The position numbers were made by a program, and so were the translations under genes. Under the pieces are notes generated by a model. It was not told the origin of the DNA. It saw only the letters and a program-made list of their open reading frames with translations, and ran no database searches. Below are positions 3,897 to 62,249 of a stretch of 64,000 nt of DNA, one piece after another. Within the stretch, counting starts at the first letter, position 1, and the number at the start of each line of letters is the position of its first letter. The DNA is from Owenia fusiformis (lineage: Eukaryota; Annelida; Polychaeta; Sabellida; Oweniidae): NCBI GenBank assembly GCA_903813345.2, contig CAIIXF020000008.1, positions 20,380,822 through 20,444,821 of the forward strand, in the 5' to 3' direction.

Positions 3897-4745
3897 CACC
3901 CTATGCAGACAGAGCCTGTGGGAAATATTGGGTGCGGAGCAAATGAGCGGAGGGTGCGGAGCTAACGGTTATTTTTGAATTTAAATTTGGGATATTTCTG
4001 AAACTAAGCCGTTTTGGGACTTCAAATATACCAAGATATGTGTATTTGACACCAAATATCAATACAATTGTGAAAATAGTAGCGCAATTCATTCTATAGC
4101 GACGCAGTGTGCCTTAAACCTTTCCCAGACCTATATATTTTGAAATTATCCTTTTAATACTGAGTCCCCAGCATTCATAAAAAATGGTGTTCAAGGTGCA
4201 CTATCTATACAAATTATTTTTGGATCTTGGAAGCCAGGCAGTATCTGTGTGATTTTATAAAAATTCGGAAATTTTTTCAGATATGAGCCCCCTCTAAATA
4301 TTGGGTGCGGAGCAGCTCCATAAACGTAGCTCCGCACCCAATATTTAGAGGGGCTCATATCTGAAGAACATTTCCGAATTTTTATAAAATCACACAGATA
4401 CTGCCTGGCTTCCAAGATGCAAAAAAAATTTGCATGGGTAGTGTATCTTGAACACCATTTTTTATGAATGCTGGGGACGCAGTATTAAAAGGATAGTCTC
4501 AAAATATATAGGTCTGGGAAATGATTAAGGCATACTGCGTCGCTATAAAATGAATTGCACTACTATTTTCACAATTTTATTGATATTTGGTGTCAAATAC
4601 ACATATCTTGGTATATTTGAAGTCCCAAAACGGCTTAGTTTCAGAAATATCCCAATTTTGAATTCAAAAATGACCGTTAGCTCCGCACCCTCCGCTCATT
4701 TGCGCCGCACCCAATATTTCCCACAGGCTCTGTCTGCATAGGGTG
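3897..4745. mobile_element. 849-bp near-perfect palindrome, TTTTA target duplication
   Basis: The element begins CACCCTATGCAGACAGAGCC and ends with the reverse complement of that string. The two ~417-bp arms match almost throughout around a loop of about 15 bp near 4314-4328. It is flanked by TTTTA on both sides (3892-3896 and 4746-4750). The uninterrupted paralogous site lies in the same window at about 3412-3425, where one TTTTA runs straight into the TAGGCTTTCATTATG sequence that here follows the element. Transcription would give one long hairpin RNA. Confidence 0.9.
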
Positions 4746-5607: not shown

Positions 5608-5775
5608 CCGGGCAACTCATCCCCTAGACGACTCATCCCTTGGCAACTCATCCCCTAGACATATCATCCCCTGGTTGGACAACTCATCCCCTAGACAATT
5701 CATCCCCTGCACAACTCATCCCCTAGACAACTCATCCCCTGGACAACTCATCCCCTGGACGACTCATCCTTTGGC
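5608..5775. repeat. short tandem repeat, CAACTCATCCCCT unit
   Basis: About eleven imperfect copies of a 15-18-bp unit built on CAACTCATCCCCT are arranged head to tail. The array continues into an interspersed sequence (TTTGGCATATTTGAGTAAT and onward to about 6030) that has a second copy at 61.97-62.24 kb. The array is therefore the end of a dispersed element, not a local expansion. Confidence 0.75.
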
Positions 5776-6035
5776 ATATTTGAGTAATTTAATGTTACAT
5801 TATCAGTTCATAATTGATATTCAAATGATTTTTAAATGTTTTGGTTATGAATATTTCGAAGGTACGATTTTTCTTTTTTCCTTATTTCACGAGTTGTTAG
5901 CAGAATTCCCAAGACATTTTTATCATTTGTCTAAGAAAATCTGGAAAATTGTTAAAAAACTATGGTATTGTCAAGGAGATAATCAACCAATTAAACTCTG
6001 ATTTGTTTTATAAATATTTCATTTTAATTTCACTT
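5776..6035. repeat. interspersed repeat body, copy 1
   Basis: This copy shares an ordered set of phrases with 62050-62245: TTTGGCATATTTGAGTAAT, then a TTCATA...GATATT...AATGATTTT block, TCTGGAAAATTGTTA, and GAGATAATCAACCAATTAA. Both copies follow a CATCCC-type array and have the same orientation. No protein is recognisable. Confidence 0.65.
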
Positions 6036-6870
6036 TTGACATACAATTATATTACATTAACTGAAGAAGTCCCTTTGATGTCATAATAGGTTTGTTGTTC
6101 ATAGCTCAAATATTCTTTAATCCAATATGATATTTTTCACAGCATTCACCGATGAAGTTACTCAAGTTCACGTTTCCAAGTTATGCAGAAAGAAATATCG
6201 AGTCATGTAATATAAGGACAAAAGATGAGAGTTGTAATGGTACCGTTTGACTGTTTCATTTGTTTCAATAAAGTGAAAAATAATATTTTTTAATGATCCA
6301 AGGTGTATTTATTAAATATTTCTTTTCCAGAAACACTTCACATGTCGTATCCCGATGCTAAGTCATTTGTCCATGTGAAATCAGTGTCCATGTTAAATCA
6401 GTGCACCCTTGCGGAAATCCTCAATAGTAAGAATAGGGGTTCCACCATCGTATCTTGTTGAGGAACCCTTCAAGTACGAGATACAAACGGTTCCTATTCT
6501 GATCCCTTCGTTTCTCATCCATTCTTAGTTCTTATCCATAACTTAGATGCGTTAATGGTTATAAAGAAAACATTAATATGTATTTACAAAACGCAAGAAG
6601 TTTGGTTGAGTAACAAAAGACACACAAAGATTGTTTAAATGTCTAAATTACATATGAACCCGTTTGTAATCGCATGCTATACTATTTGGAAAAAATTTTC
6701 TCATCTGGTTTGACCCACATGGGAATAGACTTACAAATCACAATGATAGTATCTCAAAGATGCATATTAATAAGCACGGTGCTCTGAGATAGGCACTTGT
6801 TTACATGGTTCAGTGGGTGTATCTAGTCACTTGGGAGTGCTGTTCCATTGATAAACAAACGCAACACACA
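6036..6870. other. gene-free stretch
   Basis: No coding similarity, inverted repeat or tandem repeat stands out here. Confidence 0.4.
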
Positions 6871-7101
6871 TCACATGATAGACTAACTTGCAACTGTGTA
6901 TCACGTGATGAACTAACTTCTAACTGTGCATCACATGATAGACCAGCTTCTTACTGTGTAACACGTGATACACTAACTATGTATCACTATCACGTGATCC
7001 ACTAACTGTGTATTACGTGATGCGTTAACAACTACACATGTGTACCAGTAATCGCTAATTGTACCACGTGATGCACTAACTGTTTACTGCTTATCACGTG
7101 A
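6871..7101. repeat. ~30-bp tandem repeat of TCACGTGA-type E-boxes
   Basis: Nine palindromic or near-palindromic octamers occur in about 230 bp: TCACATGA at 6871 and 6931, TCACGTGA at 6901, 6990 and 7094, ACACGTGA at 6961, TTACGTGA at 7013, CCACGTGA at 7064, and a related CACATG near 7035. Most are followed by an ACTAAC-like phrase, so the array is a degenerate minisatellite of about 30 bp. TCACGTGA is the preferred site of bHLH-zip factors of the MITF/TFE/USF type. Whether any bind here is unknown. Confidence 0.7.
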
Positions 7102-7359
7102 TGCACTAATTGCTAACAGACACACTCGCTGAGTTTCTACTGGCATAGAAAGTTAAATAGCGCCCCCGAAGACCCCTTAGAAGAAATACATAAATTAGGT
7201 ATAATAAAGCCCAAAATGAAATATTTGTCTAAAATAATTATAAGTATCCATAAAAATGCCCCTTATTATCTAAAAAAGACTTTTCCTAATGTATTAATAC
7301 ATTTTAAAAAACAGGGATCTTCCTATATGGTAACATCGACTTTCTATATATAACTAGTC

Positions 7360-8250
7360 AAATAGCGCCCCTCCGCCATAAACCCAATGAGAAAATAATA
7401 TGGGAGGGGCGCTATTTGACGAGTTATATATAGGAAGACGATGTTCTCTAGATTTCGTTATTATAGACTAGGAAGAAGTGTCTTATTATAGCTCGTTAAT
7501 TATCGCCCCTCCTCCATAAACTCAATGAGTATTTAACATGGAGGGGCGCTATTTGACGAGTTATATATAGGAAGACGATGTTCCCTAAATTTCGTTATTA
7601 TAGACTAGGAAGAAGGCTCTTATTATAGCTCGTTAAATAGCGCCCCTCCGCCATAAACCCAATGAGAAAATAACATGGAGGGGCGCTATTTAACGAGTTA
7701 TATATAGGAAGACGATGTTCTCTAGATTTCGTTATTATAGACTAGGAAGAAGTGTCTTATTATAGCTCGTTAATTAGCGCCCCTCCTCCATAAACTCAAT
7801 GAGTATTTAACATGGAGGGGCGCTATTTGACGAGTTATATATAGGACGACGATGTTCCCTAAATTTCGTTATTATAGACTAGGAAGAAGGCTCTTATTAT
7901 AGCTCGTTAAATAGCGCCCCTCCGCCATAAACCCAATGAGAAAACAACATGGAGGGGCGCTATTTGACGAGTTATATATAGGAAGACGATGTTCTCTAGA
8001 TTTCGTTATTATAGACTAGGAAGAAGTGTCTTATTATAGCTCGTCAAATAGCGCCCCTCCGCCATAAACCCAATGAGAAAATAACATTGAGGGGCGCTAT
8101 TTGACGAGTTATATATAGGAAGACAATGTTCTCTAAATTTCGTTATTATAGACTAGGAAGAAGTGTCTTATTATAGCTCGTTAATTAGCGCCCCTTCGCC
8201 ATAAATCCAATGGGGAAATAACATGGAGGGGCGCTAATTAACGAGTTATA
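7360..8250. repeat. 137-bp palindromic satellite, array 1
   Basis: The GACGAGTTATATATAGG landmark falls at 7418, 7555, 7692, 7829, 7966, 8103 and 8240, exactly 137 bp apart. Each unit contains a stem of about 20 bp (TCGTCAAATAGCGCCCCTCC and its inverse) around a ~30-base loop. Two unit types alternate for much of the array. One has CCGCCATAAACCCAATGAG in the loop, the other CCTCCATAAACTCAATGAG, giving a 274-bp higher-order period. Confidence 0.9.
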
Positions 8251-8298
8251 TTATACTCTTATTATACAAATTTTATCGAATTTAAAACAAAAAATATA

Positions 8299-8324
8299 TA
8301 TTTTTTATTTATTTATTTATTTAT
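8299..8324. repeat. (TTTA)n microsatellite
   Basis: A run of TTTA units lies between the 137-bp and 46-bp arrays. Confidence 0.8.
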
Positions 8325-8439
8325 TACACACACTACAATGTAAGATTACATTCTAAAAGGGATTTATTTTGGGGCCTTATATAAAAAAGGGGCAAGGTAT
8401 TTTTGGGGGGAAAAATATAAAAAATGAAAAATATAAAAA

Positions 8440-8700
8440 AGGGGCGCTATTTAATAGCGCCCCTAACATTATGATATTACCATTGAGGGGCACTATTAAA
8501 TAGCACCCCTCAATTAATAATATTACATTATAGGGGCATTACTTAATAGCGCCCCTCACATTATGATATTAGCATTGAGGGGCACTATTTAATAGCACCC
8601 CTCAATTAATAATATTACATTATAGGGGCACTACTTAATAGCGCCCCTCACATTATAATATAACATTATAGTGCCCCTGCTTAGTAGCGCCTCCTACTTT
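8440..8700. repeat. 46-bp palindromic satellite
   Basis: Six units start at 8440, 8486, 8532, 8578, 8624 and 8670, exactly 46 bp apart. Each has a 25-bp palindrome (AGGGGCGCTATT, one central base, AATAGCGCCCCT, or the GCACTATT variant) plus a 21-bp AT-rich spacer. GCGC-type and GCAC-type palindromes alternate, as do two spacer types. Confidence 0.9.
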
Positions 8701-8859
8701 AATATAAAATAAACTTACATAGATACTTAATAGTGCCCCTTTACTTTCGTTATATAGATTAGGAAGAAGGCTATTATTAAAGCTCGTCAAATAGCGCCCC
8801 TCTGCCATAAACCTAATGAGAAAATTTTGAACAAAATACTCATCGGCAGGGCATCGGTG

Positions 8860-9470
8860 CTAAAAATCTGTGACTACGGCATTAGCAATGGAATTATACA
8901 CTAGATATATCAAGGCGAAGTTTGAGCAACTAAAACCTTGAGAATCAAGATGCAGTATTTAGTCCGATAAATGTTTGTAAATCTTATAACTTTGTAAATT
9001 CAATTATTAGCGTTATCAAAAACGTCCTAAAATATACCATTAGTTATCACACACGATCGTTCATTGTTGGGTTATAAATGCTGGAGAATATGACCTCTAA
9101 TATACGTAATAATAAAGACCGTGATTCTTCCCATGTCATTCTCCCATAACTGAAAATTTCCTTCATAAATTTAACTCAGAACTTATAAAAGTAAATTTTA
9201 TCCCTCTCAAATTCATTGATATATACATGTAAAATTAAATTATTTCGACTGAATCCCTCGTGTCCAGTGTATGAATACTTCATATAGTTTGCATAAAACA
9301 TCGTGCATCTAGTCACGTACACCAATTCATCAAACTGACCACCAGGCCATTAATTTTATATATATGTTGAACGTCCTACAATATTTTATATTATTATCAC
9401 TGATGAATAAAAATACAGATTTGAATTCTATGAAAATGTGTGACACAAAACATGTTATTGGCCAACATTT
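8860..9470. other. unrelated insert between the arrays
   Basis: About 600 bp of AT-rich sequence without satellite motif or coding signal separates the 46-bp array from array 2. It may be ordinary internal sequence of the element or a later insertion. Confidence 0.4.
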
Positions 9471-9995
9471 TTTATTATAGACTGGGAAGAAGGCTCTTAT
9501 TATAGCTCGTCAAATAGCGCCCCTCCGCCATAAATCCAATGGGAAAATAGCATGGAGGGGCGCTATTTGACGAGTTATATATAGGAAGACGATGTTCCCT
9601 CGATTTCGTTATTATAGACTAGGAAGAAGTGTCTTATTATAGCTCGTTAATTAGCGCCCCTCCTCCATAAACTCAATGAGTATTTAACATGGAGGGGCGC
9701 TATTTGACGAGTTATATATAGGACGACGATGTTCCCTAAATTTCGTTATTATAGACTAGGAAGAAGGCTCTTATTATAGCTCGTTAAATAGCGCCCCTCC
9801 GCCATAAACCCAATGAGAAAATAACATGGAGGGGCGCTATTTGACGAGTTATATATAGGAAGACGATGTTCTCTAGATTTCGTTATTATAGACGAGGAAG
9901 AAGTGTCTTATTATAGCTCGTCAAATAGCGCCCCTCCGCCATAAACCCAATGAGAAAATAACATTGAGGGGCGCTATTTGACGAGTTATATATAG
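9471..9995. repeat. 137-bp palindromic satellite, array 2
   Basis: The landmark GACGAGTTATATATAGG recurs at 9569, 9706, 9843 and 9980, again 137 bp apart. Units are the same two types as in array 1 and in the same orientation. Confidence 0.9.
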
Positions 9996-10203
9996 GAAGA
10001 AGATGATCCCGACTTTTTTTTATTATAGACTAGGAAGAAGTATATTAGATAGTAAGGTGCATTTTATATGAAATCATTTTAAATCTTTTTATGCCACAAT
10101 AGAAATTGTGCTGGCCTAGTTTTTGGGATTTGGGATTACTCATTAATACTTTTTTTGATTTTTTTCCAAGGGGTCTTCGGGGGCGCTATTTAACGAGTAT
10201 GCC

Positions 10204-13200
10204 CAATTTTATATGCAAACTTTTTAATTACTCTTTTTTTTAACATGTACTCGTTTACCAGTATTATCTTCATGGACTTCATACCTTGATTATATCCAAG
10301 TGTTACCAGGAAATAAAATGGACAATTTCGTCCATGATTAGGCAATGTCATCTATTTTAGCAAAATAATCTACCGATATTTTATCATTATCTTGCTTAAT
10401 TATTTCTTGAACGATACTTAAACTAAACACTTAAAAATAAATGGGGAAATTCTAGGATGTTAAATTAACCAATCCATTACAGTAGCTCTAGTAGCACTTT
10501 CTAGTAGGTTAAATAATTGCCTTTTCAGCAATCCAGGTTTTTAAAATCAGTTCGTCTTCATTGAATGAAGTGGATGCACAGCATCCCAAATAGTAAACCT
10601 AATTGCACAATGCACTAAATCTGCCACGGAAGCTAAGGGTTCCTTTAATATATAGTTTTTGCTTCTCTATAAAAGAGAGATCCTGAGAGCAAGTTGTTTT
10701 GCTAATTTATTCTTGCAAATTACGTTCTCGTAAAAAATCTAAAAAATAAATCCCTAAATCTTGACGTAGGGCTTATCATTTGGGAACAACTGGATACCAA
10801 GACATGATGCTATGGATAGGTACCATGCGACCGCACCGCGTGCCATCACGACAGCCACACGGGTTTTTTCTCGCTGCAAATCTGCCGTAGAATACATGAC
10901 TTATGACTGACTACTATAGATATGATAGAAAAATCTAACCTCGGTCATAGAGTTGCCATTGTCAAGAGATACTGAACTGAATGATGGCGGAAATGCCATT
11001 CAGATTTTCAAATTTTCAAGCTACATGTATAATTTGTTAATGTTTTTTCAACAAATTGTACAAAATTGCTATTTTCTTTTTTTCTGAGGGTGTGCGATCG
11101 CATCCATCGCACCCCCCCCCCCCTCCGTCGGACAAAAGTAGTTTTCTTGTATTAGTTTTCATGTCTCGGCTAAGCTTTTTACAAGAGTTGAAAAATCAGT
11201 TCTGCATTCATTAGAATGAAATGAATGCAAAGACGAGACTGAGTTATGGTTACGCTACATAGGACTAATTGTTGTACTTCTGAATCATTTTTCATACCAA
11301 GAATGAGTTGAAAGCAAAATTTGAAATTCAGTTAAAATCAAGAATACGAATTTCATTTTGAAATGGGCGAGACGACTTGGTTCAGACCCTACACGGACTC
11401 TTACCCGGCCCCAGTCCTACCCTACCATTTCTAATAGTTTTGAGTTGTACTACTAGGGTTGCTATTGCATTTTACTTTGACTTATCAGCTCAGATACTAT
11501 ACGTTATTGTTTGATTATCATTGTTTTGTAATTAACAGAACAATAACGTAGAGTGGTGCTTATAATTCTTCCATCTGCCATACTATTTTCATTATTTCAG
11601 GTTATTAATAGAATGATATTGATATCCAAAATGATATTTGCTACTTATACTTTGATAGATTTTCCAGATTCTACGTCATTAGATCAACCCACATAAAGGT
11701 TTGGAAACATTTGATCGCCGTGAATTGCATAAGCGAACCATTGTTTACTGCAATGCGACCCTATCTGACAATACTGGTATATTGGCAAAACTAAAATTAA
11801 AGTCATTATTACCAACATTCCCATAAATTATTTACATAAATGGCGATTATCCAAATTCAAGTTTAATATCAATTTGCATTTGTTGTCGTTGAGAACTTAA
11901 TGTTTGACAAAAAATATGTATATTATTTATTTTTTATGATCCCAATCAATATCAATTTTAAGAACCATAACTTGAAATGAGAAATTTGGATATCCATATT
12001 TATGAAGAGGGTGTATTTTATCCATAATTGCTACATAGGCATTTTAAGAACCACAACTTTAACTGAGAATTTTTTTTTAACGTGTCATTTTTGCCATGTA
12101 CAGTACACGTAACAGTATGTATAGGCCTACTATTAAATAAATAACCTTTATGCGCTGTACCAATTTAATAAAGTAAAATGTATCGTTCTGTTTTCCTCCA
12201 CCATTAGTAATGTAACAGCTAGCTGCATATCAATGAAATAAATAAAGGGGACTTACATAAGCATGCTACAGTATTTAATAAAACCTATGTCACTCCATCC
12301 CAATTGGTCGAATCCTCTCTTTCATCACATAATCTCAAATTCGCAACTACACTTTATTTTGCAAGTTATAAAAATACACAAAAAATAATATAAAAGTGCT
12401 TCCTTCGATTTGATAGAACGATATAAATATTCACTCACCAAGTACTGTTGACATTACACGGTAAATGTCACCCCCTTTGTCGAAGCATGTCGCATTCGTG
12501 AGACGGGGAAGTGGAATGCTGATCCTTATCAGACAAAGTACACAGTTTTTCACTTCCCGAAAGTGCTTACATAAGACGTTAAGGGTAAATGTCCTCGTAT
12601 TGTTTCAAATTCAGATATGTATCAATTGAACGTGACGAGTGCTTACGTACGCATAGATCTTTAATTGTTGTCCGTCCTGTTCCCTCTTTGCAGCATTGTC
12701 GTCTTGTACGCGATGTACCATCCAGCTCAATAATTGAATGATATTGTGCATGAGAGGTGCTGCCCTCTTTTTCATGTTGACTACACTAGTATATAATAAT
12801 AGTCTTACTGGTTAACCGATAACCATTATAGCACTTATCTTGTACCCTACGTATATTACACACGTGTGTATCATTTGAAGTGGATATCGTTTGTATTTTT
12901 TCTGTATGTTTGTTTGTCCCAAAGCATTATAATAAGAAATAATATGGTCATAACAAGATATTATATAACATCACGATCAATTAAAGTTCAATTTTACCAC
13001 CCATTCACAACTCAAAACATTCGTGCTTATTTATCCCCATGGAAAGTGGATTATGGAATTTGGGACGAATATTTTCGTATTCTAAAAGCCCAGATTGAAC
13101 ACGAACACACGAACATGAACAGGAAATAAGAAAATTCACATTTAATTGTTTCCAGTTGAAATACACTGAAAAAATATTCTTGGTATAGTCTCGAAAATCA

Positions 13201-13461
13201 TGAAGAAATGCCGATGTCATGTTACTGTGTGGTAGGTATGGATTCTTTCATCAGGCCAGATGAATGATAAAGTCCCACAAGTGGATAGCAACCTTAAGGT
13301 AGAACTTCACTTCACTGTCGATCGACTTTTTTATGATTCAGATTTTCTTGAAAAAATAAATATGAAAGATATACTGATGAATAACAAAATTGTGGACGGT
13401 TAAAAAGTCCGTCTGGTTGCGAACCCACCTTCTCGGGGTATAAAATTAAAAAAAACATTTA
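10204..13461. other. gene-free AT-rich stretch
   Basis: No supported gene is present. Near 11090-11130 a TGCGATCGCA palindrome precedes a C14 run, a motif that also occurs at 32.6 kb in a repeat. Around 12440-12620 on the minus strand an open frame ends at a donor-like GTGAGT, but it matches no known protein and was not annotated. Confidence 0.4.
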
Positions 13462-13605
13462 ATGCCTTGGTCACATTTGCTCCGATTTTTACTACGGCGC
13501 TCGGCCGATTGAGTATTTTGTTCAAAATTGAATTCAATATTGAACAAAACACTTGAGATCGGGTGGGCGCCGGCCGATTGATCGGAGCAAATGTGACCCA
13601 GGCAT
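13462..13605. mobile_element. 144-bp MITE
   Basis: The ends are inverted: ATGCCTTGGTCACATTTGCT, then CCGAT, faces ATCGGAGCAAATGTGACC followed by CAGGCAT. The interior has further self-complementarity, TTTTGTTCAAAATTGAATTC against GAATTCAATATTGAACAAAA. No coding capacity. Confidence 0.75.
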
Positions 13606-15896
13606 AAAAAGCACACAGAGTTTACACTCGCGGATTGGCCTAGTTCCTTTTTATATGGGTGTGAAAGCTCCCTCATTATTCGTTTTTTCGTTTAGTACTA
13701 TTTTGTTATAAATACCGAAGTTATGCAATCGGATACAACATCCCTTCACTGCACACACAACAGAATAACTAGTCAATAGAAAATGCATTTAGCCACTGGA
13801 CAATTTTAAACATTTTTGAACATTTTGCTCGTAAATATTTATTTTCAAGACCATGATATGATAATGCCCTTTGTCACAATGTCATCATACTATTTGCTTT
13901 TGAAGTTGCGTTATTAAAGGTTTTGTTTTTGGCATTAGGGATGCGCCAACTGACTGCGCAATGGACATTGAAGTTCTACCTTAACTCACTGGGTGAAAAT
14001 GGAACTATGGTATATTAATGTAGCCGGTCATCTGGCCCGAGTTTAACAAAAGTATGTCAAATTGCGTTCAAATGAATCCAAATGGTTGCAGTTATAACGA
14101 TATTGTGCAACATAAGTTGAACCATGCATGAAATGTCTGAATTTCCAAAATTGTGATTTTTACGACAAAATAGTGATTTCTCAAAAAAATGCTAAAATTA
14201 TTAGCATAATACTTCCATTAGATGGATATTAATGACATTTTCATAATTGCACACTGGCCTAAAAACCTACCCCTCTACACATACACGCCATCTTTATAAT
14301 ACAATCGTATTTATGGGTGGTCAAGAAACTCTGATTAGCCTGATTTATCAGAAACTTACATATATATTTTGAAGTATTTAAGATAACAAACAGGTTGGTT
14401 TTATCAACAAATAAACATAATTCAATTTATTTGTCAAATATATGCAAAAAATAGTAAACAGATTTGCGGACATCATTTGGATTATTAATAACAGCATTAG
14501 TTAAAACATTTACCTGGCGCATATTAACTAATTTATCGGATTCTTAACTTATGATTGTTTAATATATTTAAAATAAATACATATTATGGCAACTTCATGA
14601 ATTGAATTCCATCCATGTCTATAATCCGAAGCCGTTGTCAGATGACTTAATATTTACATAATTATTTCACACTGCGTTGCCTCAAGGCGAGACGAACTTG
14701 TCAACCTTTTTTGTTACCAAGAGCGACATCTTTTAACAGCTGAAAAACGTCATCACTTCGGCAAACGATATAAATTGTTCAAAGATTGCCTCAAGCCGAG
14801 TCCTCAATGTGTACAATAGGTTATAAATTTGTGATCAGAGATGTTTCGTGCATATACAGTATGCACTCATTTATCTCATTGTCATCGAATATTGATTAAG
14901 TCATTAGTTTATCTTATAAGACTATTATCATATGTACATTGATTTGTTTACACTTTTGTCCTCCTAGTCTGTTCGTCATTGAATTGTGCTAAGGTAAAAA
15001 TCAGTTGAAAGAGGGAATAGTATGCTTTTCATAAAAAGTACGATCACACTTTAATTATTCGCACTGCAACAATGGATTAAATCCAAACACAATATTCACC
15101 CCTTAAACCAGGGAGTTTTAGGACTACATGGCCACACACATAGTATAACTGTTTAAATAAATAACTGTCTGTTGAATTCAATTGTACATCTGGTTTTAAT
15201 CGGATCATAAAATATATGCGCCCCACGCATATGAGACATTGCAAGAGCATTCGATGTATTTTGGTTTTTCGTAATCATGTAGATCAGTCATTCGGTGTCA
15301 TGCAGGGAGACGTACTTAATCCTATTATATTTAATGGAATCCTCCATTAACGTTGAACTCATCATCTCCTCCCTTGTTTAACTTGGGCTGTAACAAAATA
15401 ATAACATGCTGTCAATGCTGTGTGTGGTATTCAATTCGCCTTCATAGGACGCCAAATATTTTTACATCACGTTAATGGTGCAAGTGATATCGGAAGTAAT
15501 TTGATTTAACTTTTATATAATATTTAATCTCTATTTATCTGTTGTTCAAACAAAGCAACAGTTTAACAATATACGTGCAATTTATTTCAGAAGGTTTAAT
15601 TATGCGAACTATTTTTCTTTTTTATTATATCTATAGGATCGAAGCAACAACATTTGGTTCCATTAAAACGGAAATTATAAGAACTTGTTATACTTCTTCC
15701 AATACTTTCGATTCCCTTCACAAATGGTATGGGTTTTAGGTCTGCATGTCATGTGAATGACTTGACAATAAAATGGTTCAAAGAGTCTGAGTTCCAAAAT
15801 ATGATACATCTAAGATTGTGCTCTTTTGTAAATATCGAAGTGAATAAATTGGAAACACGCGTTTGAGGCTGAATCCTATTTTTTGTCCCTCGAGTA
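13606..15896. other. gene-free stretch downstream of the ZP gene
   Basis: AT-rich, with no coding similarity. On the minus strand it would contain the 3' UTR of the ZP gene. Several TTTATT words (AATAAA on the minus strand) lie between 15530 and 15630 and are possible polyadenylation signals. Confidence 0.4.
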
Positions 15897-15920: not shown

Positions 15921-18900
15921 CTTTAAAAAACCAAAACATACTTTTGGAAAGTGAACTCCGATTCGCTGAGAGTGGAATAGTAAAACATGTGGTTAACACA
16001 TCTTCATGCACTTGCTATAACTACTACTCACCCTTCTGATGCATTGGACAACAACAGCCACGACAATGACCAAGAAGAGGAGTCCAATCAGAGCGCCCAT
16101 GGCGAAGATAATGCCTGATTCCAAACACAGGGTATTCTCTGATGCTGAAACAACATGATAATTTTCATAAGTTTAAGACCCGACGCATGATAATATGAAT
16201 AACTTTGTGTAGTACTAAGTACATTACCCGGGTACATTAACATAAATACAATTTTATTTTATTCAATTAACTAAGACAGCGCATCATATGCTGATGTCAG
16301 ATGTACCAAAAAATTGTTGAAAGAGAACTGCATATTTACATTTTCCAATTTGATTTTGAGTGAATACCAATGTTTGTCTTGCTTTGTAAATTCATAACTA
16401 TCGTAACAACACGACATTTTGAAATTATATATGACTCCATTCTTCAACAATCAGAGCTAACAATAACCTAGGCCCGAGTTATTGTAAATCATGTTATTTA
16501 GTACTAAACATCATATTATTCAATACTGAACATTAAGATGAAAAAAGTACAGCTGCGTCTTCTATAGAGATCTATTTCTTTACTCAGAAAATTATTTGTT
16601 ATACTTACCAATGGCGTGACGGTTCCCATGGGCGTCATCTGCTTCTTGTATCACTACTCTTAAAGAAGTAGTTCGTTGCAATGTTTTGTCGGTCAATTCT
16701 GGTTCATCTGCCTGACGCCTGGCTCGTGATTCTGGTGCGTCTCGCTTCTTCCTTCCCAGGCCACCGTCGGAACCACTACAGGTTCCCTAGAAAATAATTT
16801 AATTAAATGAAACACTTACTAAAAGAAGTAATACATGTAGTCCCTGGTGACATTTCTAAGGTAGGTAGGCCAGGATGAGAAGGATTTATACTCAAAACGC
16901 CTTTGGTACAACTCGGTGACGTTTTCATATCTTCTTTCCTTAAAATCTCAAATGAAGTAATAACGATCCTTTGGTTCAGTGAGACAATCGTTTTTATCCA
17001 CCATTTGAGGAAGAATTCCAAAGTTCATTTTAAAGAATGAAAGACGTTGATCATCTGTGATGTTCTACTTGCTATGACATGATACTAGTAAGCTATATAT
17101 TGAGAAATGAAAAACTTACAGCGGCGCAAGAAGAGGCGTCACCAGCAGGGCACACTACAACTGAGCAGTGAAAGTAGACAGTCAGGGCATTGGAGAACTT
17201 GAAAGCTGGGAAGGTTGCCTTTATGTCGCTACCACTTGTTTCGAAGGCGCCAAAGAAATCAGTGTCTGAAGCACATCTGAAAAGAGTTTACAATATTTAT
17301 TATCGTTGGAAAGTTTGAGACGTGGAACTTTTGACATGACCAGAATGAAAATATGTAAAAACTAACTGAGAGATTGCCAAATATTTAAAAATGAAGATAT
17401 CCATTATTACCCAGATGCATCTGTGAGTGCAATCTGTGTAGCATCTGAGCTGTCGGACGTGGGAGTAGCATAGCACGTGTGTCCCTTAAATGATCCATAC
17501 GCCCCGCCTATAAAAAGGGATTTAAATATATTTTAAAAGATATTTTAAAAGTGTCATCTCCATAGATACATTTACATGGTCTAACAAGGTTCTACATCAT
17601 AAAATATCAAGGTGGACCAGTCGGGTATCAGTAAATCATATAGAGCCTTTTTGCTCAAAGTGGGTTAGACTACTTTATATATGTTGCCTTGATTTATGAC
17701 ATTACGTTTTTCCACATATCGCTAGACATTATTTTAATGTTATATCTAATCATTTATAATGAAATCATGTAACTTGTGCCTACTTTGATCATCGGTCAAA
17801 CTAAGTGTCAGAGACAACGATGTCCCAAGGTTAACTGCCCCAGATATAGCAGTGCCATCAGCGAGGGCAGATGTCATTGTTACAGTAGGGTCACCGGCTA
17901 TTGAGGAGTCATTTCCAGCGGCCGCGTTCGAAGACCTAGAAGTAAATATAACTGTATAATAGCAATATATGGTTATTCATTGTGGCGTGTACAATCTCTA
18001 TACCCTTGGAATAGAGAGTCTCTCACAAGCTTTAGATAAAGAGAGACTCTGATAAATCAGGATGAAGGTTGTTTGTTTCACCCTGAAAATGATTGATTCC
18101 ATAGATGTTTTTTGTTTACAGCATTGTGATTTTCTGGAGATTTGAAAATCATTATTCTGAATTAAGAAGGTAGCCCATCATTAGAAGTTAATCCCAGGGC
18201 TCAATGAATCGTGGATGCTTTTTATCACGAATGTCTTGTATTGAGTCTTTGAACAGAAATTGACATTTCATTTTATTTTAAATAATGACATATTATAGTT
18301 GATTAGAACTCGGAATGTGTAATGATTTTTTAGCCTATCCTGTACATATGTTTATCACTACCGTATTTTGGAAATTTTTGGTCTTTACCCATTCACGCCC
18401 GGTGATCGTGAATATGGGACGGAGGGGGGGGGAGCAGGCAATTTCTGCTAGGAAATTCAACAAATCTGGAAGATTTATTTTTTTAAGAAAAAGTTTACTA
18501 TTGAATTGCTAAATGGATAGGCGCACGGTATGGTAGAATATGTTAGGTTTTCTGGGATTTTTTCTGAAACGATACGCATCTAAGGTATGAGATCTATTAA
18601 AAAAGGCGCAAGGCCATCAACAGGGACAAATCAACGTTTTTGCTATAAATCAAGCAACAATGGACTGCACGACCTGTAATAAATACTTGTAAGTGATGTT
18701 ATCATAACTAAATTAATGTCATTGCTGAATTTATAAAATAAGTTTCCATACGTAAAATAAAAAATAATCGAATATAATTAAAATGGGACGGAGGGGGGAG
18801 GGGACGGAGGGGGGGAGTAATAATTCTATAAAGTGAAACAACTTCACACGAATTCTTGTATTTGAAAAATGAACTCATTAACTTAGTAAGAAACTGGATG

Positions 18901-21260
18901 ATATACCCCTGGAGACTGAAAAATGGGGACATTTGAAGTAAAAGGACTTAAAGTCGCGAAACATCTCTAATCATGTCTTATATACATATTGCTCCCCCCC
19001 CCCTCCGTCCCAAATTCATTATTTTCGATTATTTTTTATTTCACGTATGGAAACTTATTTTATAAATTCAGCAATGACATTAATTTAGTTATGATAACAT
19101 CACTTGCAAGTATTTATTACAGGTCGTCCAGACCATTGTTGCTTGATTTATAGCAAAAACGTTGATTTGTGCCTGTTGATGGCCTTGCGCCTTTTTTAAT
19201 AGATCTCATACCTTAGATGTGTATCGTTTCAGAAAAAATCCCAGAAAACCTAACATATTCTACCATACCGTGCGCCTATCCATTTAGCAATTCAATAGTA
19301 AACTTTTTCTAGAAAAAATAAATCTTCCAGATTTGTTGAATTTCCTAGCAGAAATTGCCTGCTCCCCCCTCCGTCCCATATTCACGATCACCGGGCGTGC
19401 CATTGGCACTTTTGTTTAGAATTTGCACAACAATGCAATATTGTTCAGTCAGAAAGAAGTTTCACTCTCTCTCTTATTTTAGCTTGATTTGAAAAATTCT
19501 TACGTGTCTCCAGTGAAGCCAGTACCATCTGAAGTCGAACCACTAAATGCATCCGCTGGATTACATGTTATGGTGAGGATTTCATCATCTGATGTTTCAA
19601 TACCAGTCGAAAGTTTGGGGACGATGATGACTGTTGTGTACACCCCATCCTGAAACAAGAACGACATTTTTTAAGCATCGCCAAAATTCTTTTTCTTTTT
19701 CATCGAAATCCCTTTAAAAATTGATTCACCCGTAATTATTGTACAAAAATCGTCATAAATGTTGAAATAAATGAAAAATTAAGGTTTTATTCAATTTTGA
19801 TATCACTGCTAACACATGCAAAAGTACATCACAGAATAAAACATTGTTGTAATTAACCTCTGACCATACAGCTAGGTGCATGTCAATAAGGTCAAAGTCC
19901 CCAGAATCTCTTGTACACTTGTATATAATTATTTGGAAACAGATGGAATACATTTTTAAATAATTCTGCTCTCTTTAGATAAAACTAAAAACCATACCGA
20001 GAGAGAAATATCACAATCCGTTAGTGTTGAATAAGTGACAGTGAAAGGACCTGTTCCGGTAACAGCACATCCGGCATCGTCCTTGTAGCCATACGCGTAT
20101 GGTGTGCCAGCCATACCAGCGTCTCTTGTCACAGAGACTACTAGGGATGTCGCTGAACATGTCGTAATAGAGGCTGAAATAAAAAATATTTTCACACTCT
20201 TTATATTAAATTACATAGGCCTACATCTACAAATTGGGTTATAACCTTCACATTTGAATATCTAATGAATGTTATTATTTTATAAGCATAGTTAAAAACG
20301 TCAGATTTTCATCACCACAGGTGATTTCTGTATTGACATATTCCATGGGAAATATATATCCTGTACCAAAGAATTTAACCACTGGTAGCAAAAGAGCTCT
20401 AGATCGATGTATTGCAAAACAGCCAGTTTATAAACAAAAAACTAGCCTACCTGAGCTGAGTGCTGCCCCGTTTCCACTGTGGATCTTTAAAATAAAAAGA
20501 TGGATTATTAACATTGCAAATTGACTCTTTGTGTCCGTGTTTTCCATGAAGGCAGTTTTGTAGGATATCTCAATGAAAAGTATTTCAGTATTGGCCAACC
20601 AACGTACCCTTGATAATTATTGACGATAACATTGCAAATTGACTTTTTGTGTCCGTATTTTCTATGAAGATAATTTGAGTATTGTGACCGATTCTTGCCA
20701 TAACTTTCCTATTACGGATTGATTGAAAAAAGCAGATGTGTACCGAGGATTATCTACAATTTGGATAAATCCTACAATTTCGAATTACGTACGAACATCT
20801 TTTCATGATGAAATATCAGAATATTTCTCAAAAGCAATATTTTTTAAAATGTCGACATAATACTTCTAAGTAAATAGTACGTACTATGACGAGAGAAAAA
20901 ATTCAAAAAAAAAATTCAAAATTCAAATGGAATTTGTAAAATATTTGATATTGAAAAAGAAAGGCATAAACACTCATTTGTCAATTACACAAATGCAACA
21001 GAATAAATACGCAAAAATTAATTAATTTTCCGAAAAAGAAATTTTATTTCAAAACTATGAAAGAGACTTTGAGAATAAATGCAAATCAGGTAGTATTAAA
21101 ACACAACTTTGTAATATGGAAACTGAGGAATTGTAAAACCTGTTTCAATTTAGTAATGTTTATCGAAAAATAATACTTTTAAGAACTATTAGTTTTCACT
21201 TAAAACACATACCTGCAAAACCAGAAGGACTGCTACAATTCCAGTCGTCCTCAAATACAT
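15897..21260 (-). CDS. ZP-domain transmembrane protein (gene span, 9 certain exons plus 1 tentative)
   Basis: The spliced product is about 374 residues. It has a signal peptide (1-16, hydrophobic GIVAVLLVLQ, cleavage inferred before about residue 25), a ZP module, a basic cleavage region, one membrane helix and a very short tail. The ZP-N half (about 28-140) has four cysteines. The ZP-C half (about 165-275) has six, with the diagnostic order HTCYATPT, SGCASDTDFF, VYFHCSVVVC and SSCAAGTC. Two dibasic furin-like sites follow (RKKR at 282-285, RARR at 291-294). The helix is at 341-362. ZP modules polymerise into extracellular matrices after cleavage at such a site; function beyond that is inferred. 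All nine internal junctions are GT-AG and phase-consistent (1101 nt = 367 codons). The specific ZP protein is not identifiable. An alternative would be an endoglin- or cuticlin-like family member. Confidence 0.87.
16032..16144 (-). CDS. ZP gene exon 9 (transmembrane helix)
   Basis: Encodes ASENTLCLESG and a 22-residue helix (IIFAMGALIGLLFLVIVVAV and VV), then QCIRR. The donor AGG/GTGAGT implies a further exon. Confidence 0.87.
16609..16786 (-). CDS. ZP gene exon 8 (last ZP cysteine, cleavage sites)
   Basis: Starts GTCSGSDGG with the last ZP-C cysteine. It then carries two basic sites, GRKKRDAPES and RARRQADEPE, followed by a hydrophobic-alternating segment TSLRVVIQEA that could act as the external hydrophobic patch. 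Confidence 0.88.
17120..17276 (-). CDS. ZP gene exon 7 (ZP-C core)
   Basis: Encodes GCASDTDFFGAFETSG, FPAFKFSNALTVYFHCSVVV and CPAGDASSCAA. This is the most conserved part of the domain and identifies the family. Phase 0 donor GTAAGT. Confidence 0.92.
17411..17507 (-). CDS. ZP gene exon 6 (ZP-C)
   Basis: Encodes GAYGSFKGHTCYATPTSDSS and the strand TQIALTDASG. The CxATPT element is a hallmark of ZP-C. The exon ends two bases into a glycine codon. Confidence 0.85.
17784..17935 (-). CDS. ZP gene exon 5 (linker and ZP-C start)
   Basis: Encodes a serine-rich linker, then VTMTSALADG and AVNLGTSLSLTLSL. The VxLGxxLxLxL strand marks the start of ZP-C. Confidence 0.85.
18394..19399. mobile_element. 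1-kb foldback element with CCATT target duplication
   Basis: Arms 18394-18818 and 18992-19399 are near-perfect reverse complements. The outer end is CACGCCCGGTGATCGTGAAT, and the flanks CCATT/CCATT (18389-18393 and 19400-19404) look like a 5-bp target duplication. Both arms contain GGGACGGAGGGGGG runs able to form G-quadruplexes. The element sits in ZP-gene intron 4. A diverged relative of one arm lies at about 39040-39240 in the bark gene. Confidence 0.88.
19504..19649 (-). CDS. ZP gene exon 4 (ZP-N, second half)
   Basis: Encodes DGVYTTVIIVPKL, then LTITCNPADAF with the fourth ZP-N cysteine. The donor is GTAAGA, and the exon ends two bases into a codon. Confidence 0.85.
19998..20173 (-). 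CDS. ZP gene exon 3 (ZP-N, first half)
   Basis: Encodes residues 28-86, including the first three ZP-N cysteines (ITTC, DAGC, LTDC) and the YAYGYKDDAGC turn. It has a good polypyrimidine acceptor and a GTATGG donor, phase 0. Confidence 0.85.
20451..20484 (-). CDS. ZP gene exon 2
   Basis: A 34-nt exon between TTTAAAG and GTAGGC encodes IHSGNGAALSS, completing the region around the expected signal cleavage site. It ends one base into a codon. Confidence 0.65.
20513..20680. repeat. 115-bp direct duplication in ZP intron 1
   Basis: The phrase AACATTGCAAATTGACT followed by TTTGTGTCCGT and ATGAAG occurs at about 20513 and 20628 in the same orientation with few differences. Confidence 0.6.
21213..21260 (-). 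CDS. ZP gene exon 1 (start, signal peptide)
   Basis: The ATG at 21258-21260 opens MYLRTTGIVAVLLVLQ, a signal-peptide core, and the exon ends CAG/GTATGT in phase 0. It is the only start that joins in frame to exon 2 and gives a secretory leader. Confidence 0.8.
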
Positions 21261-27551: not shown

Positions 27552-28937
27552 ATGAAGATGACAAAAGAACTCAGGCGATTCTTTATGTTTGCATCGAGCC
27601 TTGCGCTGATCATTCCTGGATTGGTATGGTACTTCTTTGGGATGTACTCGAATAGTGATATGTATTCGTCAACACGCACTAGATACAGGCCTAGTGTAAC
27701 TAAACACTGGGATGTTCCAGATGATTCTTCCACAAGTTTCATTTCAGTTAATGACACTGGTATTCCAGTTAAAGTTGAAGGAGTATTAAGATATGATGGA
27801 TCACCATCTGAGATATATGACAACAATAACATATCTAGTAGAAAATATACAAATGTAGCATTTACTGGGGTTATAAGTGATTTAATAGCAAAGTTGTTGT
27901 ATAACGTATCAACTGATCACCAAGATATTAACTCTTATGACACGACTGAAGAAGAATCCAGCGCGTATGACAACATTCGTGGAACGCAGACTCAAACTGA
28001 TAATTCCAAACGAGCGAAGAAAAGCTCCTTAATTGCTTCGAAGGAGCCAGAAGTGACTTTGGAAGATTTAGTAAGTGGAGCAGCTTCAAGACCAGATTTA
28101 GTTAGTGAAGCAACTTCAAGACCAGATAACTGCAAGTCATGTTTCCCAGAATCTTCCTATCTTTACATGCCTCCTGAGGTCTGTTCCACAACGTCACCAA
28201 AGTCCCCGTATGTGACACTTTTATTGCTGATCTTCACAACTCATGAAAACAAGGCGCATAGGGACACTTTAAGACGAACTTGGGCAAGTATCGCAGATAA
28301 AAACTCAGCCGAGGTACGATATGTCTTCTTGCTTGGGAAACACAAAGTCCGAACGCTGAATAAAAAGGCATTGGAAGAAGCTAAAAAGTATGGCGATATT
28401 GTGATTAAAGACTTCGATGAAGTTTACAGGAATTTAACATACAAAACAATAGCTGGATTCCAATGGGCGTCGAAATTTTGCTCAAATGCACAATATGTTA
28501 TGAAAACAGACGATGATATGTGGGTGAATACGCCTAAGATCCTAAAGGATTTAGAATCATGGGACATAAAGAATGAGGTTGTAGGGGACTGCTACCAAAC
28601 TGGGGTGCCAAATAGGGATAAGAAATCCAAGTGGTACGCTTCCTTTCGAGAATATCCTAGGTCAACATACCCAGGTTTTTGCTCGGGAACAGGTTACCTC
28701 TCCACCATGAAAGTTGTAAAAGATATTGTAAAAGTATCTCCAAATATTCCATATTTCTATCTCGAGGACGTCTATGTGGCGATATGTATACGAAAATTGG
28801 GTTATACGTTGAGGAAACATTATGGATTTCACAATGCCAAAGTGCTATTTGATCAATGTTTGTATCATGAAATCATCATCACTAGTCATTATGTTACGCT
28901 GGAAGAAGTGGAGGCAGCTTGGAACGCCATATGTTGA
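27552..28937 (+). CDS. beta-1,3-galactosyltransferase-like protein (GT31 family), intron-less
   Basis: Encodes 461 residues in one exon. The layout is type II Golgi: short basic N-terminus, signal-anchor helix (FMFASSLALIIPGLVWYFF, about 11-29), a long stem to about 195, then the GT31 catalytic domain. Family motifs appear in order: RRTWA (241-245), DFDEVYRNLTYKT, YVMKTDDDMWVN with the metal-binding DDD at 320-322, YPGFCSGTGYL, and EDVYVAIC with the acidic pair E405-D406. These enzymes transfer galactose or N-acetylglucosamine from the UDP-sugar in beta-1,3 linkage; donor and acceptor cannot be told from sequence. The usual EDVYVG glycine is alanine here. The stem holds a direct 10-residue repeat (DLVSGAASRP, DLVSEATSRP). 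The ATG at 27552 is chosen because TAG at 27522 closes the frame and the anchor follows at once. Confidence 0.94.
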   Translation: MKMTKELRRFFMFASSLALIIPGLVWYFFGMYSNSDMYSSTRTRYRPSVTKHWDVPDDSSTSFISVNDTGIPVKVEGVLRYDGSPSEIYDNNNISSRKYTNVAFTGVISDLIAKLLYNVSTDHQDINSYDTTEEESSAYDNIRGTQTQTDNSKRAKKSSLIASKEPEVTLEDLVSGAASRPDLVSEATSRPDNCKSCFPESSYLYMPPEVCSTTSPKSPYVTLLLLIFTTHENKAHRDTLRRTWASIADKNSAEVRYVFLLGKHKVRTLNKKALEEAKKYGDIVIKDFDEVYRNLTYKTIAGFQWASKFCSNAQYVMKTDDDMWVNTPKILKDLESWDIKNEVVGDCYQTGVPNRDKKSKWYASFREYPRSTYPGFCSGTGYLSTMKVVKDIVKVSPNIPYFYLEDVYVAICIRKLGYTLRKHYGFHNAKVLFDQCLYHEIIITSHYVTLEEVEAAWNAIC

Positions 28938-29680
28938 TATATAAACGCTGGGTTTGATGTCATTATTTGAAAGGATAACGGTTTAACATTTCATTTTGCA
29001 AGGTTGAACCCATATTTTAAGACATAAATCAAAAACCCATATACGTATTTCTATTATTTTGTATCATTCCTGTCTGGTTGTAAATTATTTACATAAAACC
29101 AACACTCATGAAATATTACACCAATGTATTCAAAACATTACAGAGAACCACGAGTTGTTTGTAAAATGAATCGGGGGAGTTTTTTCATGCATTTTGCTTG
29201 TGTTTTTCATCTGAAACATCAATACACTTTAAAACATTTTATTGACTATAAGATTGCACCATATAATCCCAAAAAAATATTTCTCAAATATTTCTCATTT
29301 TCAAGGATTATCTATGGATTAACAATCAGGTATTTTTATTTTTACAAATGTTTTTGAATAACATAAATGCTGTTTTAAATAGTTTCATGTATAGTGTACC
29401 ATCAATTTCTCAAATTGTGTAAATGGTCATCGTGGTAAGCCACGCCCTCTCCATCTCTATCCTTCTGGATGCAGCAGAGAGAGATGCTATGAGTATCAGA
29501 ATGGTAAATGGTACCTATTCCCTAGTCCCTAGAATTTTCTCTTTGGGGAATTTCCCATAGTAATCCAATGGTATAGTTCCAAGCAGATTTTGAGATAACA
29601 GGAAAGTTTATCATTAATACACACATTTTGGGTTGTATAAACCAAAACAACCCAATAAGGTGAAAAAACTCCCCCCAATT
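28938..29680. other. 3' flank of the glycosyltransferase gene
   Basis: AT-rich, probable 3' UTR and intergenic DNA. GGGGGAGTTTTTTCATG near 29174 is roughly inverse to GAAAAAACTCCCCCC near 29662. No gene was recognised. Confidence 0.4.
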
Positions 29681-30339
29681 CATGAAAACCCTCCCGATTC
29701 ATTGTACAGACACCTCAAGGTCTTCTTATCTCCTTTGGTTCCATAAGACACAGAGCCAAGCATCTGTGAAAGAGACCAATGAATGTACAGTTTGATGGTG
29801 CCCAGATCGAAATTGCCCCCAAAGTAGCTAGCTCTAGCTACCATGGCCCAGGAAGCTTGAACATGAAATAAATGCTAGGTTCAGTCGAACCACAACTATT
29901 TTACAAAATAATCATTGATTTCATCATCATCATGAATAAAATTGTGTCGTTCCAGCTGCTGAAATAAAACAAAGAATTAAGTAATAAAATACAACGTCAG
30001 ATACTGTACGTAATCGTTACAGTTTTCAAGCATAAATGCTAAATTAGAGCAACGGAAATAAGCGGCTTTACATTAATTTTTCGCCTGCACTTGAAAATCT
30101 TTTGAAATGATAGGATACCATAAGCATCTCTCGCGAATTCCTTCATCCACAGATTTGATAGATATGATATTGCAGACTTATAGTTATGCATGACCTGGAA
30201 CATCGTATTATGTCGACAATAAATATTCTTTAATTAATATTCACTGGTTATTTATAGTCTTTATTTAATAGGCCATATATGCAAGACGATATCGTTATTT
30301 CTATGGTGTAATAAGATTCAGAGATCGCAATAAAAATGC
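29681..30339. repeat. recent direct duplication, left copy
   Basis: About 659 bp match 30672-31319 with only scattered differences in the same orientation, starting CATGAAAACCCTCCCGATTC. The block contains GTAGCTAGCTCTAGCTACCATG and an AATAAA at 29867-29872, but no protein-coding frame. Confidence 0.9.
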
Positions 30340-30671
30340 CATCATCATACTAGTCTAGGCTCTTCGTTTTTTTTGTTCGAAACAATGAAGAAATCAAGCC
30401 ATTATGATTTGATGAATATATTGATTGTTTGAAATAAACAAAAACCACCCGAGCAAGTTTGTCGGTCACTTTTTGTCCCTGAAAATTATGTTTTGCCCCC
30501 ACCCCCAGGGGGTAGCAGGGAGTAAAAAATTATTTCAAGAAAAGCTTTTCATATAATAACATAAAATTAGTTGATTCAAGAAGTAAATACTGTATATCAG
30601 AAAGCGGTTTTAGTAAAATCAATAATTTAATTATCTAATGTTCAGTAATTAACAATATTGGTAACATGATT

Positions 30672-31319
30672 CACGAAAACCCTCCCGATTCATTGTACAG
30701 ACACATCAAGGTCTTCTTATCTCTTTTGGTTCCATAAGACACAGAGCCAAGCATCTGTGAAAGAGACCAATGAATGTACAGTTTGATGGTGCCAAGATCG
30801 AAATTGCCCCCAAAGTAGCTAGCTCTAGCTACCATGGCCCAGGAAGCTTGAACATGAAATAAATGCTAGGTTCAGTCGAACCACAACTATTTTACAAAAT
30901 AATCATTGATTTCATCATCATCATGAATATAATTGTGTCGTTCCAGCTGCTGGAATAAAACAAAGAATTAAGTAATAAAATACAACGTCAAATACTGTAC
31001 GTAATCGTTACAGTTTTCAAGCACAAATGCTAAATTAGAGCAACGGAAATAAGCGGCTTTACATTAATTTTTCGCCTGCACTTGAAAATCTTTTGAAATG
31101 ATAGGATATCATAAGCATCTCTCGCGAATTCCTTCATCCACAGATTTAATAGATATGATATTGCAGACTTATCGTTATGCATGACCTGGAACATCTTATG
31201 TCGACAATAAATATTCTTTAATTAATATTCACTGGTTATTTATAGTCTTTGTTCAATACCATATATGCAAGACGATATCGTTATTTCTATGGTGCAATAA
31301 GATTCAGAAATAAAAACGC
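30672..31319. repeat. recent direct duplication, right copy
   Basis: Matches 29681-30339 at an offset of about 991 bp. Small differences include loss of a few bases near 31192 and 31257. The ~330 bp between the copies contains a C-rich patch and no gene. Confidence 0.9.
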
Positions 31320-32552: not shown

Positions 32553-33724
32553 AGGCTCTTTTCTTCCTTTATCATCACTGGTCATATTTTCATTGGTTAT
32601 GGGGGGGGGGTGCGATCGCACCATCGAACCCCCTCCTGGCTACGCCTATGACATTGTAAGACGATTTGAAAAACATGACAAATCAATCTTACTCTATTTT
32701 CAATAGTTCATATGTCGTGAATTGTTTTGATTATGATTTAAATCTGTAAATGGCTATCGTTACTTTAGTAGAGAGGTGACGTGTGTTAATTTACATGATG
32801 CAACGTGTACGATAGCCTTGCCCATGTCGGTATTTTTTTACTTATCTGTTTTTGAATTATTATAATAGAAATCAAGATAGTAAAAGAGAGTGTTATGCGG
32901 TAAACACGATACAAAAATATGTCATATTCCGCAACGAATATGGCATATTCACTTGCGGTGTATGACAGATTCACCTGCGGTATATGGCATACACACTAAC
33001 CAATGAGAACGTGATGTGGAAGTACGCAATTGTCAATTGCATCGATTGAACGAACAAGTAAAACGTTATAGATTATTATAATGATTATTGAATCAACAGT
33101 ACTGTGTATCGAATATATTACCTTATCAGAAGTATCAGTCACCAATCTCGCGTAATAAACTTACTCAATCAATCCAGGATTCATATATTAGTACTCGACG
33201 CACTAAATATATTGCTAATCCAGCGTATAGTTTTACATTTAGAGTCGATTCTCGCAACCAATCAAACCAACGCTTTCTGTATCACGTTTTCACCTGCGGT
33301 ATATGTCATATTCACCTGCGGTATATGGCATATTCCGCAAGTGAGTATGACATATTCCGCAGGTGAGTATCGGGTATTCACTGAAATCAATGTATCGCAT
33401 ATTCACTGCGGAATATCGCATACTCACTTGCGGAATATGCCATATACCGCAGGTGAGTATGGCATATTCACCTGTATCACAAATACCGCGCAACCATGAA
33501 TGTATGCCATATACCGCGTAACAAGAGACCGACTTGGGCAAGGCTGCGTGTACGATTTTGATTAGTTATCATAATTTAAGTTATCCCGATTTTCGACGAA
33601 ACGTCCACTGTAGTGTAAATTGTTACGTCTTACAATGTCGTAGGCGTAGCCAGGAGGGATAGCACCCCCCCCCCCCCATAACCAATGAAAATATGACCAC
33701 GACGATAGAGGAAGAAAAGAGCCT
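32553..33724. mobile_element. 1.17-kb inverted-repeat element
   Basis: The outer arms 32553-32672 and 33617-33724 are inverse: AGGCTCTTTTCTTCC, ATTTTCATTGGTTATGG, a G or C run, GGCTACGCCTA-type, then ACATTGTAAGACG. Further in, ACGATAGCCTTGCCCATGTC at about 32810 faces ACTTGGGCAAGGCTG at about 33532. A TATGCCATA-rich element (32892-33522) is nested inside. The outer arm contains TGCGATCGCACC. It begins where the LINE helix motif ends, which suggests insertion into the LINE. Confidence 0.75.
32892..33522. mobile_element. GTTACGCGG/TATGCCATA element, copy 1
   Basis: Bounded by GTTATGCGGTAAACACGATA and an inverse ending CCGCGTAAC. Within it, short self-complementary phrases such as GGTATATGGCATATTC and CCGCAGGTGAGTATG recur on both strands. 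Between the two groups of phrases lies about 250 bp of ordinary sequence. Related to 35384-36100. Confidence 0.75.
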
Positions 33725-34358
33725 TAAAATGCTTTTTTTTAAGCTTCTAGCTCAATTTTGAAGGATGTTACATACACTTTTGTAATTTCAAAACAAATCT
33801 TACGTTTTCTAACTGATCTAATTATGTTATATGTTCGTATTTTTCGTTTTTGGGGTACCCGTTTTTTCGACCGGGTACGGGTACCAAGTTTGAACCCAGC
33901 ATGGAGGATTTACTACCTGGTACCCGGTTTTTTCTACAAACCCATCTGGATTCCAAAAGTTTCACCATGCAAATAAATAAAGCTAAGCTACGATCACAGA
34001 AACTTGTATCACTATGATATGCTTAGATGCAGAGTCTCTATTATATAGCCTATAAGCCAGCATATCAAAACTATACCATATATTAAGGTGCTACCGGAGT
34101 TCCTGTGGCTACGATTGTCAACAACCAAAGTAAATGCTCTAACAACTGCGATATGGGTAATTTTAAAGAATACAGCTTCACTTAGAATGACTTAAACTTT
34201 GTCATCATCAAGAATTGGCTAGAGGGTCTAGAGACTCAGTAGGTTTTGTAGAGATTTTGGCGAAAATGGCCAAATTCCAGTCAAAATCCTCGGGACACAG
34301 GGCCTTTGTCTTAGATTTAGTCAATGATGCAACTCTTAGTAGAAGGTGTGCCATATCA
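33725..34358. other. gene-free stretch
   Basis: No coding similarity. A short self-complementary GGTACC-rich patch (GGGTACCCG, CCGGGTACGGGTACC, CTGGTACCCGG) lies at about 33855-33930. Confidence 0.4.
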
Positions 34359-62245: not shown

Positions 62246-62249
62246 TTAC

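Follow-up and report, generated by a model that had tools for sequence, protein, structure and literature searches.

The window analyzed here, a 64-kb stretch of Owenia fusiformis DNA with a G+C content of 31 to 40% per 2 kb, contains a galactosyltransferase gene at 27552-28937 and, between 43.4 and 49.3 kb, beta-helix and SRCR domain coding stretches that are interrupted by non-coding DNA and that presumably resemble 'bark beetle', a gene content indicative of an animal. It also holds copies of a 16-bp-period minisatellite (CAACTCATCCCCTAGA) at 5610-6031 and 61891-62259 that, with their flanks, are 69% alike, a direct repeat of ~645 bp at 29678-30325 and 30669-31311 (97% identical, with a gap of 343 bp), a 103-bp tandem array at 53324-54042 (~7 copies, 94% matches), and a long inverted repeat at 2147-2865 whose arms are 83% identical along their entire length. 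The element studied here occupies positions 7142 to 10203, and its left end lies 25 bp beyond a 30-bp minisatellite (6870-7116) that contains the palindrome ATCACGTGAT.

The original prediction had placed the limits of this 3.06-kb unit correctly: GGCATA at 7142 is inverted to the TATGCC that ends at 10203, and the perfect part of the terminal inverted repeat is 27 nt long (Table 1). The longest stop-free stretch in the element is 69 codons, and a coding element was set aside on this basis. We found no second copy of it in the 64-kb window, where the next-best similarity, apart from a match to 13458-13609, had an E value of 0.014. When all starts from 7130 to 7161 were combined with all ends from 10186 to 10215, no exact target duplication of 5 to 12 bp was found. 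A duplication of 2 to 4 bp, either TTAA or TA, would fit the element ends, yet at one locus such a fit could equally be chance; TTAA is present at both tips, and the TA at 7146-7147 and 10198-10199 is too short for duplication to be judged from one copy. The TTAA at both tips would suit a piggyBac/Kolobok-like insertion. This candidate, though possible, was set aside because the likeness between the tip and the inner copies extends beyond TTAA (CTCG, at the right end), which favors a longer tip. A Helitron or Helentron carrier was also set aside, because those elements have subterminal repeats and a 3' palindrome, as given in an excerpt of PMC7492417, rather than a perfect 27-bp terminal inverted repeat.

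TABLE 1 Features of the inverted-repeat element, in window coordinates
Feature	Start	End	Strand	Remarks
Left terminus	7142	7178	+	GGCATA, then 27-bp perfect terminal inverted repeat (7152-7178); outer core 7155-7166
Left arm to inner core	7179	7371	+	Inner core 7360-7371; 7249-7343 pairs with right arm
First palindrome	7345	7432	+	Only palindrome with left-arm flank
Array 1, seven 137-bp palindromic units	7349	8253	+	TRF array 7349-8251
46-bp palindromic array, cores tip to tip	8440	8707	+	Five clear units and one degenerate
Half 137-bp unit	8753	8825	+	Ends inside loop
Non-array sequence interrupting array	8826	9470	.	First 60 bp match one half of a small palindromic repeat, 13458-13609
Array 2, four 137-bp palindromic units	9472	10041	+	Block copy of 7599-8145
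Right arm, outward from inner core	9968	10167	-	Inner core 9968-9979; unit spacer derives from ~9991-10047
Right terminus	10168	10203	-	Inverted 27-bp copy (10168-10194); outer core 10180-10191; TATGCC end

Terminal cores, palindromic arrays, and hairpin folding

With no more than one mismatch allowed, the 64-kb window contains 30 copies of the 12-bp terminal core, AAATAGCGCCCC, compared with 0.11 expected and a maximum of 1 in 100 shuffles, and every copy lies inside 7155-10191. The earlier claim that all hairpin units reuse the terminal core holds, and the accompanying count of at least 17 units with 137- and 46-bp periods is about right, with 16 clear units and 2 that are partial or degenerate. 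The description of the element as built almost wholly from palindromic satellites was overstated, since the arrays account for 1816 of 3062 bp (59%) and the stretch from 8826 to ~9470 is non-array sequence. The 137-bp periodicity is exact inside each block (TRF arrays 7349-8251 and 9472-10041). Complete 137-bp palindromes, with stems of 26 bp, number 11, and these are the only full 137-bp units in view, all at one locus.

In the 46-bp array, the cores are arranged opposite to those of the 137-bp units, tip to tip, with GGGGCGCTATTTAATAGCGCCCC in the first unit. This array looks as if two element ends had been joined through a common TTAA that lacks a base. The GCGC of the core is kept in 22 of 23 cores of the 137-bp units and in 4 of the 8 pattern-fitting cores of the 46-bp array, the other 4 reading GCAC or GTGC; the pattern used for this count did not detect those cores of the 46-bp array that had decayed further. 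This array may be the older of the two types. Exact tip and unit patterns had 0 matches in viral contigs, and the exact unit pattern had 0 matches in prokaryote contigs. A looser 15-base pattern matched once in each of 30 viral contigs, which we take as chance, and the letters of the core had no match in a text search of the literature.

The 137-bp unit at 7599-7735 folds as RNA with an energy of -57.4 kcal/mol, at a z score of -8.9 relative to shuffles (-7.1 as DNA), while the 46-bp unit at 8486-8531 by itself folds only mildly better than shuffles (DNA z score of -2.25, with 7/200 as good). To compare variation along the 137-bp unit, we used 9 of the 11 complete units, dropping the first and seventh because their flanks differ. 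Variable columns made up 4 of 54 in the two 14-bp cores plus 13 outward columns each and 20 of 83 elsewhere (Fisher P of 0.012), although these units are recent duplicates and the alignment columns are thus not independent. The strong fold of the 137-bp unit and the lower variation of its cores and outward columns could mean that the hairpins are retained for their transcripts, with the array yielding a long hairpin RNA or small RNAs. We consider this very unlikely, given the dependence among columns of recently duplicated units and the outcome of a covariation test on the 11 units (9 distinct), in which 66 of 500 shuffles scored equally high and both sides had changed in 1 of 26 pairs. Selection for the hairpin was set aside on the basis of these pairing statistics, which are within the shuffle range. 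Rfam gave 0 matches across the 64-kb window at gathering score, a result that also counts against a role in transcripts and on which a known structured RNA was set aside.

Inverted arms and the growth of the 137-bp array

The matching inverted ends of the original prediction are real as 27-bp termini, but the arms beyond these 27 bp, which reach ~220 to 235 bp inward, had been overlooked. In an inverted alignment of left 7249-7343 with right 10001-10070, 0 of 1000 shuffles were as good, whereas the pairing of the mid-arm (7195-7248 versus 10071-10151) was no better than chance (equaled by 497 of 1000 shuffles). Along their full length, the arms agree at 148 of 227 aligned positions, so that these are diverged arms of 220 to 235 bp. 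Each arm carries the core at its outer tip and again at its inner end, with a spacing of 205 bp on the left and 212 bp on the right, and the motif shared by tip and inner end is ~18 nt long. The locus combines the long inverted arms with internal repeats of foldback elements and the outer and inner direct repeats in ~220-bp arms of IR/DR elements.

The two inner cores of the arms join as a palindrome. The first palindrome has 43-nt inverted arms (7332-7374 and 7403-7445) that are 93% complementary, and its left flank is left-arm sequence, an inverted copy of the flank that follows the palindromes. When the left sides of all 12 palindromes were compared, the half unit included, only the first had the left-arm flank, and the other 11 had a flank derived from the right arm. 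The unit stretch that enters this variant flank matches the right arm as far as a junction at ~10047. Five aligned 92-nt stretches out of the 11 units agreed with the right arm in 75 to 76 of 92 columns, compared with 55 to 56 of 80 for the inverted left arm. Thus, the distribution of flanks and the match to the right arm indicate that the amplified segment consists of one central palindrome (~79 bp) and ~57 bp of right arm.

These units probably arose from a progenitor of ~500 bp, an inverted-repeat element with two arms of 220 to 235 bp, each of which would have had one terminal core at its outer tip and one at its inner end. At its center, the inner cores would have been fused as a palindrome with a loop of 27 to 28 nt. 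The central palindrome and the adjoining ~57 bp of right arm would then have been duplicated in tandem, probably by slippage, unequal exchange, or hairpin-prone replication. The reverse order, in which a free palindromic satellite existed first and was later captured by a transposon or by chance inverted ends, would attribute the shared core to spread of the satellite. A core common to two array types, of 137 and 46 bp, fits this order, and capture of a pre-existing repeat has been proposed for the Xenopus MITE miDNA4, as told in an excerpt of PMC12628747. We nonetheless hold capture to be unlikely, because the right-arm spacer and the left-arm flank on the first palindrome alone fit growth within the element.

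Two unit subtypes alternate in the 137-bp arrays, and 9476-10022 is a block copy of 7599-8145, with agreement at 528 of 547 positions; three shifted registers gave 494, 477, and 470. We place the alternation of subtypes and the block copying later than the first multiplication of units. The units at 7736 and 9613 are the same over all 137 nt, a kind of repeat that is prone to assembly errors, and near-identical units might have been miscounted or misordered during assembly. An artefact of this kind is highly improbable as the source of the pattern, since 19 of 547 positions distinguish the two blocks and the arms and first palindrome are independent of copy number.

Neighboring foldback elements

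An inverted-repeat scan of the window revealed several further foldback elements. The one at 3897-4745, which is 2.4 kb from the main element, has arms that are 93% identical, TTTTA on both sides, and the tip CACCCTATGC. We found an 18-bp motif at four places in this element, near the tips at 3923 and 4702 (one mismatch) and in the center at 4296 and 4329, and nowhere else in the window at up to 3 mismatches. The inner copies form one unamplified central palindrome, a design that supports the progenitor inferred for 7142-10203. The 5-bp duplication and CAC tip of this neighbor may point to Transib. A second foldback element, at 18394-19399, has ~400-bp arms that are 96% alike, flanking CCATT exactly at its ends, the tip CACGCCCGG, and the motif ATGGGACGGAGGGGGG both close to the tips and at the inner ends of the arms.

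The 3.2-kb unit at 32891-36101 has inverted ends (TGTTAYGCRGTAAACACG) and is packed with palindromic 22-bp repeats that resemble its subterminal sequence; two ends face one another near 35776-35800. It contains 22 of the 24 TATGNCATA sites and all 13 of the CGCARGTGA sites in the window, in both orientations, and these are related to its own tips. For the neighbors, duplications were sought over 25 x 25 end positions, a range in which off-end 5-bp matches are expected by chance (for example, in the element at 60535-61475). We accepted only those of 3897-4745 and 18394-19399, which are located at or no more than 1 base from the ends, and found no clear target duplication for 32891-36101.

The neighboring foldback families look unrelated to the 7142-10203 family by sequence, and the parallel between them is one of design. 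It could be that, in this genome, unrelated foldback families share one pathway, in which the inner binding sites of both arms fuse as a central palindrome, this hairpin-forming palindrome drives tandem amplification, and the terminal site seeds palindromic satellites, with 3897-4745 (unamplified), 7142-10203 (amplified), and 32891-36101 (palindromic 22-bp units) as examples or stages. We offer this as a tentative idea and are rather doubtful of it.

Relation to known transposons and satellites

A link from foldback element to satellite has been published for Tetris, a foldback transposon of Drosophila virilis (PMC4079207, seen as an excerpt, as are the other sources cited in this section). 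Like the element described here, Tetris is a non-autonomous inverted-repeat element, and its tandem units share 37 bp (~80%) with the outer terminal domain and seed satellites. In contrast, its ~220-bp repeats lie within both of its inverted repeats, whose length is up to 1.7 kb, whereas the repeats at 7142-10203 lie between arms of 220 to 235 bp and are palindromic. Tetris also makes target duplications of 8 to 10 bp (PMC4079207), of which none was found here. Galileo, of the P superfamily, likewise carries tandem copies inside long inverted repeats (PMC3688188, PMC4168063), and secondary sites in its tandem repeats are bound by the THAP domain of its transposase in gel shifts (PMC3688188). 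It differs in having arms of 0.5 to 1.2 kb and target duplications of 7 to 8 bp (PMC3688188, PMC4168063), a length of duplication that was not found among starts 7130-7161 and ends 10186-10215. The diverged arms of the present element are shorter than those of either Tetris or Galileo.

In arm length and layout, the element resembles the IR/DR elements of the Tc1/mariner group, including Sleeping Beauty (PMC7827188), in which each ~220-bp arm has one transposase site on the outside and another on the inside, and Bari1 (PMC3828361). At 7142-10203, however, the inner motif copies are fused as a palindrome and multiplied, and no transposase is visible. PMC12628747 reviews MITEs whose internal arrays are able to turn into satellites. 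Among such elements, Xstir and miDNA4 of Xenopus and pearl/DTC84 of bivalves resemble the present element as short inverted-repeat elements with a variable central tandem array, and DTC84 has a conserved palindrome close to the repeat junction (PMC12628747, PMC5139131). In these excerpts, unlike the case here, the arrays are not presented as palindromic repeats built up from the terminal motif of the element itself.

On balance, we interpret 7142-10203 as a non-autonomous, foldback-type DNA transposon, or a relic of one, in which fused inner motif copies were amplified in tandem, a reading to which we assign a probability of roughly 0.7. By analogy with Galileo and Sleeping Beauty, the terminal core is a putative binding site for a transposase that would be supplied in trans, and the inner core copies might be spare sites for that enzyme, enhance its action, or act as decoys. 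A transposon with its terminal sequence multiplied inside it, as originally proposed, is supported by the terminal inverted repeats, the 220- to 235-bp arms, and the internal palindromic cores, but neither a 5- to 12-bp duplication nor a second copy in the window accompanies them as a sign of movement. Several observations count against our interpretation: no target duplication of at least 5 bp was found, the window has a single copy and no visible partner transposase, the mid-arm does not pair above chance, and covariation lends no support to a maintained hairpin. So does the fact that a single amplification step does not explain the 46-bp array or the 8826-9470 insert.

The suggestion that the element bridges DNA transposons and satellites describes a known route rather than a new one, as it has been published for Tetris (PMC4079207), and the element is a further example of this route from mobile DNA to satellite, at one locus so far. 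A literature search for palindrome arrays in non-autonomous transposons had no match, and in the literature surveyed, which covered few subscription papers, a palindromic unit that is formed from the two inner copies of a terminal motif and has been multiplied in the space between the arms is not described. The birth of satellites from transposons has mostly been deduced from completed arrays. Here, the order of events is legible at one locus, from the ancestral flank on the first unit, the junction flank on the later ones, and a neighbor with the unamplified design. As a lone relic, the element would be no more than a curiosity within a known class; if copies with graded unit numbers exist elsewhere in the host, they would provide a test of fused transposase-binding sites as the seeds of palindromic satellites.
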